Program-made: the position numbers and the translations under genes
NCBI GenBank assembly: GCA_009885395.1
Contig: VFKT01000135.1
Coordinates: 1 to 33,202 of the forward strand
Source: Deltaproteobacteria bacterium
GTDB taxonomy: Bacteria > Desulfobacterota > Binatia > UBA12015
Length of the DNA stretch: 33,202 nucleotides
Reading direction: 5' to 3'
Shown: positions 15,980 to 18,886 of the stretch, piece by piece
How positions within the stretch are numbered: position 1 is the first letter of the stretch
Layout: each line of letters starts with the position of its first letter
The notes under the pieces: generated by a model
Seen by the model: only the letters and a program-made list of their open reading frames with translations
What the model was told of the DNA's origin: nothing
The model's database searches: none

Positions 15980-17212
15980 TCAGTCGAAGCTCCAATTCTC
16001 GCCGCCATGCACTTGCCCGAGAACGTTCTTTGCGATCAGAATGCGATGCACCTCGTCGGGTCCGTCGGCCAGGCGCAACGTCCGGGCGCCCTGCGCCATC
16101 GCCCAGAGCGGCAGATCGCCTGAGACGCCAGCGGCTCCCCAGACCTGGATCGCCCGATCGACCACCCGCTCGAAGCAGGCCGGCACGAAGACCTTGATCG
16201 CCGAGATATCGGTGCGAGCGTCGCCGCCACCGTCCATTTTTTCGGCGCAGGCGATCGTCATCAAACGCGCCGCCTGAATGTCGATATAGGAGTCTGCGAT
16301 GAAGCCCTGGACGAATTGCTTGGTCTCGAGCAGCCCGCCGTGCACCTCGCGCATCGTCGCCCGTTCGACCATCAGATCGAACGCCCGCCACATATGCCCG
16401 ATCGAGTTCATGCAATGGTAGACGCGACCGGCACCCAACCTATGCTGCGCGGCCTCGTGGCCTGATCCAACCGTGCCAAGCTGGTTCTCGACCGGCACCC
16501 GCACATCGTCATAGCGAATTTCACAATGGTCGCTGTCCTGCCCCCAGACCTCGATGCCCCGGACGATCTTCAGGCCGGGGGTGTTTGTCGGCACAATCAT
16601 CTGCGTCATCTTGCCGTTGCGTTCGGCCGGTCCGGTGGGATCCTCGGTACGGCACATCACGATGAGAAAATCCGCACGCTTGCCGTTGGAGGTGAACCAT
16701 TTATGGCCATTGATGACCCAGAAATCGCCATCGCGCCTTGCTGTCGTGCGAATTGCCCGCGGATCAGAGCCTGCCGACTCGGGCTCGGTCATCGAGAAAC
16801 CCGATTCGAGACGGCCCTCGGTCAGAGGAACCAACCAGCGCTGCTTCTGCGCCTCGGTGCCATAGCGCAGAAGAATTTGTTGATTGCCTGAATTCGGGGC
16901 AACCACGCCGAAAAGCCGTGCCGCGATCCCGCTATAGGCCAGGATCTCGTTCATATAGGCGTGTTCGAGGAAGGTGAGGCCCGCCCCGCCATATTCCGGA
17001 GGCAGATGCGGTGCCCAGAGACCAGCCTCGACAACCTCGGCCCGGACACGCGCTCGCGCCTCGGCGGCGGTCGGGCCCTCGCCCGGCTCGGCACGACCGG
17101 CCAGCAGACGCTCGAAGGGAAGTATTTCATTATTGACGATGCGGGCCGTCGTCATGCGGATGTGATTGATCCGCTCGTTGAGCGCCAGGACCGGTCGCAC
17201 ATTCATCGGCAT
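15980..17212 (-). CDS. Acyl-CoA dehydrogenase family protein
   Basis: Start MPMNVRPVLALNERI with GGAAGGAGA RBS; FSMTEPESAGSDPRAIRTTARRDGDFWVINGHKWFTSNGKRADFLIVM, QVWGAAGVSGDLPLWAMAQGARTLRLADGPDEVHR. Confidence 0.95.
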   Translation of the reverse strand: MPMNVRPVLALNERINHIRMTTARIVNNEILPFERLLAGRAEPGEGPTAAEARARVRAEVVEAGLWAPHLPPEYGGAGLTFLEHAYMNEILAYSGIAARLFGVVAPNSGNQQILLRYGTEAQKQRWLVPLTEGRLESGFSMTEPESAGSDPRAIRTTARRDGDFWVINGHKWFTSNGKRADFLIVMCRTEDPTGPAERNGKMTQMIVPTNTPGLKIVRGIEVWGQDSDHCEIRYDDVRVPVENQLGTVGSGHEAAQHRLGAGRVYHCMNSIGHMWRAFDLMVERATMREVHGGLLETKQFVQGFIADSYIDIQAARLMTIACAEKMDGGGDARTDISAIKVFVPACFERVVDRAIQVWGAAGVSGDLPLWAMAQGARTLRLADGPDEVHRILIAKNVLGQVHGGENWSFD

Positions 17213-17267
17213 CGTGGCTGGTCTCCTTCCAGGTTCTGAACTCTTTCGCGGCGCCGCATGGCTTTCA

Positions 17268-18392
17268 TCACCGGGCCGGGTCGAGGAACTCGCGGAACCC
17301 CGACGGCGCATGTGGCCCGATGCAAAGCTGTTCCATGACTCCGATGCCCTGCTCCTGGCCCATGCGCGCCCGCATCACTTGTTGGACGTGCAGATTGTCG
17401 AGTGCCATCGGATCCAAGTCGGCGTTGCGCCAGGATTCGCCGGCGAAGGCGAGTTCACCCTTCCAGCGGCCATGGCTCCACTCGGGGTGCATATAGCCGA
17501 TGCCCTTCATGCGAAAACAGAGCAGCGGCTCGAGTGAAATTTCATGGCGACGACCGTCTTTACCCACCAGGATGGTCTCGGCGCTGGCCGCCCGTCGCGT
17601 GCCGGGCACATAGTTGATCTTATGATCGACACGCGCCATATATTCGATGGCCGGATCTTCGACGCCAGGAATGTGCGACGGATCCTCGTACGCCGGCACG
17701 ATGGCACCATCCATATGCCAGGGGTGCCCGTTCGCTTCCTCGAAAATGCCAAGGTGGGTGCAGCGATTCGCCCAATGGACCGGCGACCAGAGGAAATAAA
17801 CGCCGGGAAACTGCGTCATCGGCGCCCCACCCGGATCGGCATCGCCGACGGGACGTACGCCCCAGGAACGGTCCTTGGTGCCGTAGACGTGTTCGCGATC
17901 GACCTTCAGCTGGCGCCCGCCGTAGTGGATTTCGCCCTGCCAACGACCGAATTGTGCAAAGCGGGTCGAATCCATGATCAGCTTGCCGGCACTGCGCAGC
18001 GTTTGGCGCCCTTCTTCGATGCAGGCCGTGCGCGCGGTGAAGGTGAGGTCGCAAGCAATCCCGGTTTTGTTGTCATCGATCACGACCCGCATCCGGCGCA
18101 TCGGCTCGATCATCTCGATTCGGAAGGGCCCGACGCTCAAATCGGTCGGGTCGGTCGGGCGGCGCCGCGAGGCATGGAAAGCATGCTGCTGCTCGGGGTC
18201 GACAATGCTGAAGCCGCAATCAAGAATTCCGAGATTCGGATACAGGCCCATGCCGATTCCGAAGTAGAACGAACCATCGTCCGCGTAGCCGTTGAACCAG
18301 TAGCGGTCGTAGGCGTTGCGGTCGGAGGTGGCGGGCACCGCGACGGGTTCGGGCGTTTGATGGATCGGATAATCGTCAAAACGGCTCAGCAT
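17268..18392 (-). CDS. Hypothetical protein, possibly lipocalin-like CrtC/AttH-type
   Basis: FNGYADDGSFYFGIGMGLYPNLGILDCGFSIVD ... GTKDRSWGVRPVGDAD ... YFLWSPVHWANRCTHLGIFEEANG; pattern recalls paired lipocalin-like proteins. Family assignment is tentative. Confidence 0.5.
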   Translation of the reverse strand: MLSRFDDYPIHQTPEPVAVPATSDRNAYDRYWFNGYADDGSFYFGIGMGLYPNLGILDCGFSIVDPEQQHAFHASRRRPTDPTDLSVGPFRIEMIEPMRRMRVVIDDNKTGIACDLTFTARTACIEEGRQTLRSAGKLIMDSTRFAQFGRWQGEIHYGGRQLKVDREHVYGTKDRSWGVRPVGDADPGGAPMTQFPGVYFLWSPVHWANRCTHLGIFEEANGHPWHMDGAIVPAYEDPSHIPGVEDPAIEYMARVDHKINYVPGTRRAASAETILVGKDGRRHEISLEPLLCFRMKGIGYMHPEWSHGRWKGELAFAGESWRNADLDPMALDNLHVQQVMRARMGQEQGIGVMEQLCIGPHAPSGFREFLDPAR

Positions 18393-18441: not shown

Positions 18442-18738
18442 TCAATCGCTCGAGGGCAGCGGCTTCGCTTCCTTCAGCTCCATCGGCTGGCCGTCGTAGT
18501 GCAGAGCACAGGGCCCGGGCTTGTTGATCAGAACCTCGACGGCGCCATCGGAGGAGCGGTAGCGTTTGCCCAGCGCCAGTTGGCCGCTGCCGGCGGTGGC
18601 CCCCTCGGCGAAAGCCTCCGGCGAATCCTTCAGCAGAAGGGCTGCTGCACCGTCGGTCAAATCACCAGGGCCCCCCTTGGTCACGATGAGCTGCGCGCCT
18701 CCGGGCGTCCGATAAATCTTGCCAATCTTCGCGGGCAT
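18442..18738 (-). CDS. 98-aa protein with two tandem degenerate desulforedoxin-like repeats
   Basis: Repeat 1 IGKIYRTPGGAQLIVTKGGPGDLTDG, repeat 2 LGKRYRSSDGAVEVLINKPGPCALHYDGQPMELKEAKPLPSSD; resembles the desulforedoxin/desulfoferrodoxin N-terminal pattern with CxxC and CC/CH positions replaced. Confidence 0.6.
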   Translation of the reverse strand: MPAKIGKIYRTPGGAQLIVTKGGPGDLTDGAAALLLKDSPEAFAEGATAGSGQLALGKRYRSSDGAVEVLINKPGPCALHYDGQPMELKEAKPLPSSD

Positions 18739-18886
18739 ATCCGTTCTCCGTGTGGGCCGGGCCTGGGAGGGCCGGGGTTACCTATCACCGTGTCCCCCGA
18801 CTGTGTCGCAGAGGAGATCTCGTCTGCCAACGTCGCACGGCAATCGTCGGCTTGCATCGCCCAGCCGCTCCTAGTTCGCTCCTTGG

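Follow-up and report, generated by a model that had tools for sequence, protein, structure and literature searches.

The 98-residue protein encoded in the 33,202-nucleotide stretch of DNA analysed here (the window) combines two different desulforedoxin-type proteins, termed S2 and S1 and fused in that order, and it has no cysteine at any of the eight metal-ligand positions. Free S1, free S2 and the fusion co-occur with one monophyletic subfamily of AMP-forming acyl-CoA ligases (ANL superfamily), usually within the same operon, which leads us to a strong inference that these small proteins are partners of the ligases. This link and a near-invariant KEAKPLPSSD C-terminus go beyond the preliminary description of this DNA, which had presented the protein as an internally duplicated, metal-free derivative of desulforedoxin.

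The open reading frame, previously given without a strand, is a real gene on the minus strand, and it lies upstream of genes for an Rv3169 family protein and an acyl-CoA dehydrogenase (Table 1). The sister species of the genus has these genes in the same order; the NCBIfam model matched by the Rv3169 family protein gives no description of function. The two repeats read GKIYRTPGGAQLIVTKGGPGDLTDG and GKRYRSSDGAVEVLINKPGPCALHYDG, and the C-terminal end reads QPMELKEAKPLPSSD. At the ligand positions we find T, a one-residue deletion, D and G in repeat 1 and S, G, Y and D in repeat 2. The protein has therefore, as first described, lost the ligand cysteines of both repeats and retains a single cysteine, C77, at a non-ligand position.

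Table 1. Positions of the fusion gene, its parts and the genes downstream of it in the window.
Feature	Position	Strand	Basis
98-aa Cys-less S2-S1 fusion gene; ATG at 18738, TGA at 18444-18442	18442..18738	minus	homologues, purifying selection
Repeat 1 (aa 1-36), from S2; no Cys, CxxC loop one residue shorter	18631..18738	minus	HMM cross-scores, hhalign
Linker (aa 37-53), lowest conservation of all parts	18580..18630	minus	alignments
Repeat 2 core (aa 54-88), from S1	18475..18579	minus	HMM cross-scores, hhalign
Codon of C77, sole Cys, non-ligand position	18508..18510	minus	invariant in 9/9 Cys-less fusions
C-terminal tail KEAKPLPSSD-COOH, near-invariant in S1, fusion and form iii	18445..18474	minus	alignment, tail pattern scan
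Likely ribosome-binding site GGAG, 8-11 bases 5' of the ATG	18746..18749	minus	sequence
Rv3169 family protein gene, next downstream, 49 bp gap	17268..18392	minus	NCBIfam NF053593, 384 bits; synteny (L048)
Acyl-CoA dehydrogenase gene, third in a putative operon and overlapping with the Rv3169-family ORF	15980..17311	minus	Pfam, synteny

The family occurs in three forms. Form i consists of two separate proteins, both with the full CxxC...CC set: S1, of 46-47 residues and ending in the near-invariant tail (for example MAQLGKRYMCEECGTEVLCNKPGDGALHCCDKEMPLKEAKPLPSSD), and S2, of 38-39 residues (for example MANQIGKIYVCSKCGAQVIVTKGGAGTIKCCGTEMQQKK). Form ii is the Cys-less protein of 97-98 residues found in the window. 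Form iii is a tandem of about 100 residues, present in six genomes of the class and on plasmids of Rhodococcus, Mycobacterium, Streptomyces, Sphingobium and Sphingomonas (L034-L046); its first repeat keeps at most two ligand cysteines, with two remaining in many of the proteins and one in others. The plasmid proteins are annotated as 'hypothetical protein' and lie directly beside class I adenylate-forming enzymes. S2 is a second, unannotated gene that ends the operon of the class (L061:12174-12278 and equivalents) and is easily overlooked because it is so short.

The relationship between the forms was established by scoring individual repeats against profile HMMs built from S2 and from S1 without its tail. 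Repeat 1 of the window protein scores 31.8 bits against S2 and 7.3 against S1, and repeat 2, with its tail removed, scores 27.7 bits against S1 and 8.1 against S2. The same preference is seen in all seven of the Cys-less fusions tested, where repeat 1 reaches 31-38 bits against S2 and 7-16 against S1, and the tail-less repeat 2 reaches 23-30 bits against S1 and 7-23 against S2 (the narrowest case being the fusion of genome G005). Six alignment columns separate S1 from S2; at these, repeat 2 of the window protein agrees with S1 in five and with S2 in none, and repeat 1 agrees with S2 once its one-residue deletion is allowed for. In form iii the HMM scores mark the second repeat as clearly S1-like, the first being too divergent for assignment. 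Two genomes from other families of the phylum, outside the class (G306 and G366), hold the genes in the order ligase, S2, S1, with S2 and S1 separated by 13 and 18 nucleotides; this is the order of the fusion. Internal duplication is ruled out by the cross-scores, in which repeat 1 prefers S2 and repeat 2 prefers S1 in seven of seven fusions, and by the existence of separate S2 and S1 genes.

Homology of the window protein to the desulforedoxin domain, as had been proposed, is well supported by way of S2 and S1. Neither Pfam nor NCBIfam holds a family that matches the window protein itself at E 1 or better, there is no significant sequence match in the PDB, and a direct search of the PDB with its profile gives no match to desulforedoxin. 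In hhalign, residues 1-36 match S2 (98.2%, E 4.7e-14) and residues 54-98 match S1 (99.1%, E 6.3e-19). S2 and S1 in turn score 27.9-40.1 bits against the desulfoferrodoxin N-terminal domain PF06397 (Pfam cut-off 23 bits, with some S1 sequences slightly under it), and their profiles match desulforedoxin (PDB 1cfw/1dxg, E 4e-5) and desulfoferrodoxin (1vzg, E 1e-4). These two sets of matches complete the chain of homology despite the failure of the direct match. An AlphaFold model built from a two-sequence alignment (the window protein and one homologue) was too poor to use, with pLDDT 45.8 and pTM 0.37, and the Foldseek run with this model, in which 1dxg came no higher than E 6.6 (TM by target 0.55), is uninformative.

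Desulforedoxin is a homodimer in which each domain binds one iron through four cysteines (CxxC and CC). The window protein, in contrast, lacks all eight ligands, combines two different subunits in one chain with a C-terminal LPSSD tail, and belongs to a family tied to an acyl-CoA ligase, not to superoxide reduction or to sulfate reducers. A precedent for a metal-free domain of this type comes from the class III superoxide reductases, of which the Treponema pallidum enzyme has a desulforedoxin-like domain short of ligand cysteines; there the domain is joined to an iron enzyme, whereas the window protein is free-standing, double and tailed. Judged by its sequence, the fusion protein is probably metal-free, and some residual metal binding may occur through D, H or C77.

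The full-length Cys-less fusion is found in nine of 148 genomes of the class, representing nine species in three families; in G009 the fusion copy is truncated by a contig end. Among 58 related genomes, 44 have a homologue of the window protein. By form, 28 of the 58 encode S1 and S2 as separate genes, two encode S1 alone and one S2 alone (all three of these being incomplete or having contig breaks), eight carry the fusion in the absence of any free gene, six have form iii, and 13 have none. Pairwise dN/dS values of the fusions are 0.06-0.51 (Nei-Gojobori; indicative only, given the high G+C content and short sequences), and the G-K-Y, C77, L-K and LPSSD positions are invariant among them. One ligand cysteine is kept in the G005 fusion. 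The fusion is maintained by purifying selection. It is scarcely credible that the gene is a functionless, decaying remnant of metal proteins that has survived by chance: the loss of eight out of eight ligands and the position of the gene outside its operon in most genomes would suit such a remnant, but the species and family range of the full-length form, the constraint on its sequence and the fact that it never occurs together with free S1 or S2 do not, and decay is largely refuted by the selection signal and the distribution. Taken as a whole, the preliminary description stands as regards the desulforedoxin origin and the loss of ligands, and gives way on internal duplication; the Cys-less form proves to be a conserved clade, which that description had proposed as a check.

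The usual operon of the class runs GcvT-like protein, S1, amidohydrolase, enoyl-CoA hydratase, ligase, enoyl-CoA hydratase, S2. G057 has the fusion where S1 would stand in this operon. The window genome (G000) carries genes for the GcvT-like protein, amidohydrolase, enoyl-CoA hydratase and ligase (the last at C90:5673-7211) on contig C90 (L125), which ends after the ligase; the S1 slot there is empty, and the window gene has the only KPLPSSD-type end that a tail scan finds in that genome. Of the other eight genomes with a full-length fusion, the six checked (all but G435 and G436) have the fusion gene unlinked to the ligase operon, which counts against a ligase partnership. In the ligase tree the S1/S2 genomes are interspersed with fusion genomes at three or more points, and this scatter points either to transfer or to sorting from an older coexistence of the forms. 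Identities between genomes are 75% for the fusion and 58% for the ligase in the pair G000/G020, and 59% and 60% in the pair G000/G005, so we lean towards transfer of the fusion.

The association with the ligase is apparent both in genomes and on plasmids. Searching with the ligase of the class gives an orthologue at E 1e-120 or better in 38 of the 58 relatives. With the six form-iii genomes set aside, 37 relatives have both the ligase and a family protein, one has the ligase only (G011, an 81% complete genome), one has the protein only (G052, where the ligase is cut at a contig end) and 13 have neither; the Fisher p value of 3e-10 overstates the association, because the relatives share ancestry and are not independent samples. 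Plasmids lend independent support: when they were searched with a form-iii ligase, the 18 records with a family protein were exactly the top 18 by ligase similarity of 1335 ligase-homologue records. These 18 ligases show at least 45% identity and at least 364 bits, against 38.9% and 241 bits for the next record, and the family protein adjoins the ligase in 17 of them. Ligases linked to the family, both in the class and at form-iii loci, make up one clade relative to the 30 nearest unlinked ones (SH-aLRT 99, in a quick tree with long outgroup branches). They have Asp at position 415 in a GRxDD motif where most others have Lys (numbering of L125 on contig C90 of G000). We take this position, within GRx(K/D)D, to belong to the ANL hinge region. 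Further clade-specific residues are Y184, R223, W236 and S311. Within the literature collection searched, nothing relevant turned up for desulforedoxin in combination with an acyl-CoA ligase, for 'desulforedoxin-like' proteins or for the tail peptide.

Other products of the class operon, namely the GcvT/YgfZ-like protein, the amidohydrolase or the two enoyl-CoA hydratases, could be the partners instead. The most developed alternative of this kind makes the family a redox or iron protein that works with the GcvT/YgfZ-like protein in Fe-S or one-carbon chemistry, the ligase being a passenger. S1 directly adjoins the GcvT-like gene in almost all class operons, the product of that gene passes the YgfZ/CAF17 domain cut-off (77 versus 49; L061:6170-7243 and equivalents), and BolA, glutaredoxin and Rieske genes lie nearby in some genomes. 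We nevertheless consider this alternative unlikely: at the actinobacterial, sphingomonad and class form-iii loci, and in G306 and G366, the ligase is adjacent and no GcvT-like gene is, and the Cys-less form would be incapable of one-metal electron transfer using its own cysteines.

The tail is conserved across the family, whereas the presence of metal ligands varies. Of 45 S1, fusion and form-iii sequences, 33 end in exactly KEAKPLPSSD; the remaining 12 depart from it at one to three residues, and all 45 have the terminal SD. A scan for the tail alone in 345 genomes of the phylum found it on the S1/fusion family, the other matches being chance-like. The scan rules out a general tag carried by unrelated proteins, and the tail therefore serves the function of the protein itself. 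Cysteines outside the metal site also recur: S1 has a fifth, non-ligand cysteine (EVLC) in 30 of 30 sequences (for example L061:7282-7419), and the Cys-less fusions are without it and have C77, a different invariant cysteine, instead.

These features raise the idea of a carrier or substrate protein that the adenylating ligase would load covalently, either at its C-terminal Asp or tail or at the C77 thiol. LysW, a small protein with a Cys4 metal site and a fixed C-terminus, works in this way with an ATP-using ligase and carries amino-acid intermediates on its C-terminal residue. The S1/fusion family resembles LysW in size, in the Cys4 site of its free forms, in its fixed C-terminus and in its likely ligase partner; LysW differs in its EDWGE C-terminus, where the window family ends in LPSSD, and in working with an ATP-grasp enzyme. 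An adenylate-forming partner, a tail fixed up to the last residue and the constancy of a free cysteine in the fusions and in S1 all fit such a carrier. However, the linked ligases resemble ordinary CoA ligases in beta-oxidation-like operons, the position of the free cysteine differs between S1 and the fusions and this cysteine is absent from some form-iii proteins (for example those of Mycobacterium and Sphingomonas), and there is no significant match to the LysW family, the best hit to its profile PF21344 being an insignificant E 0.45 for a single S1. A loaded carrier is thus distinctly improbable in our view.

We incline, with moderate confidence, to a reading in which the family provides a metal-independent accessory subunit of the ligase, the S1/S2 heterodimer having been replaced by the fusion, which would dock through its tail and act in trans. 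This interpretation draws on the fact that all forms share an S1-type domain with the tail, and share the ligase partner. According to this model, S1 and S2 would pair as a heterodimer and act as a small subunit accessory to the ligase, with the S1 tail KEAKPLPSSD docking on that enzyme or on an obligate partner of it. The Fe/Zn-Cys4 sites of the free proteins would mainly stabilise the fold and the dimer; that the metal is purely structural there is suggested by its loss in the fusions. Linking S2 and S1 in one chain would take the place of the non-covalent dimer and so render the metal sites dispensable, with the docking surface and tail kept. In the organism of the window the fusion gene would have been relocated from the ligase operon on contig C90, and it would now head the Rv3169-family/acyl-CoA dehydrogenase transcription unit and presumably act in trans. 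The evidence accords with the earlier suggestion of a protein-interaction module, which is the one we favour.

There is a parallel in the MbtH-like proteins, small (60-70 aa) partners that adenylating enzymes require for folding or activity and that are encoded next to these enzymes (PMC7593251). The accessory subunit proposed here, whose family shows both adjacency to and co-occurrence with an adenylating enzyme, would follow this logic; the partner of the MbtH-like proteins is, however, an NRPS adenylation domain and that of the S1/S2/fusion family a CoA ligase, and the MbtH family profile does not match the window protein in Pfam or NCBIfam up to E 1. A bolder variant, which we regard as rather unlikely, would have S1 and S2 as founders of an unrecognised accessory system in which the ligase loads, or is gated by, the tail or free thiol and the iron site is a mere scaffold; such a system would be spread over several phyla with one ligase subfamily, and its iron site would have been discarded in at least two fusion lineages. 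We also considered a regulator, such as a metal or redox sensor controlling the acyl-CoA pathway, with the Cys-less form locked in one state. Small metal-site proteins beside catabolic operons and a fusion acting from a different locus would accord with such a role, but the protein has no DNA-binding feature, and both fusion types can lack three of the four ligands and still keep their link to the ligase, which makes regulation a very doubtful explanation.

The family amounts to a natural experiment on the role of a metal site, since all of its forms (free Cys4 proteins, a fusion whose repeat 1 retains two of its four ligands, and a fusion devoid of ligands) are tied to the same type of ligase. 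The series suggests that the job of the helper is now independent of metal and, if the fusion works, that covalent linkage can replace the metal of desulforedoxin-like helpers. It also indicates an unannotated partner for a ligase subfamily of soil and pollutant-degrading actinobacteria, sphingomonads and uncultivated bacteria; such a partner could account for ligases of this subfamily failing to be active alone. Counting against a ligase partner, two form-iii copies (L033 and L047) have no clade ligase adjacent to them. In Rhodococcus gordoniae (L047, L194) the family protein lies 28 kb from a clade ligase on the same plasmid; it adjoins an alpha/beta hydrolase and FAD oxidoreductases. Rhodococcus sp. 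BH4 (L033:6001-6300) carries a second, diverged form-iii copy with the tail RLPASD.
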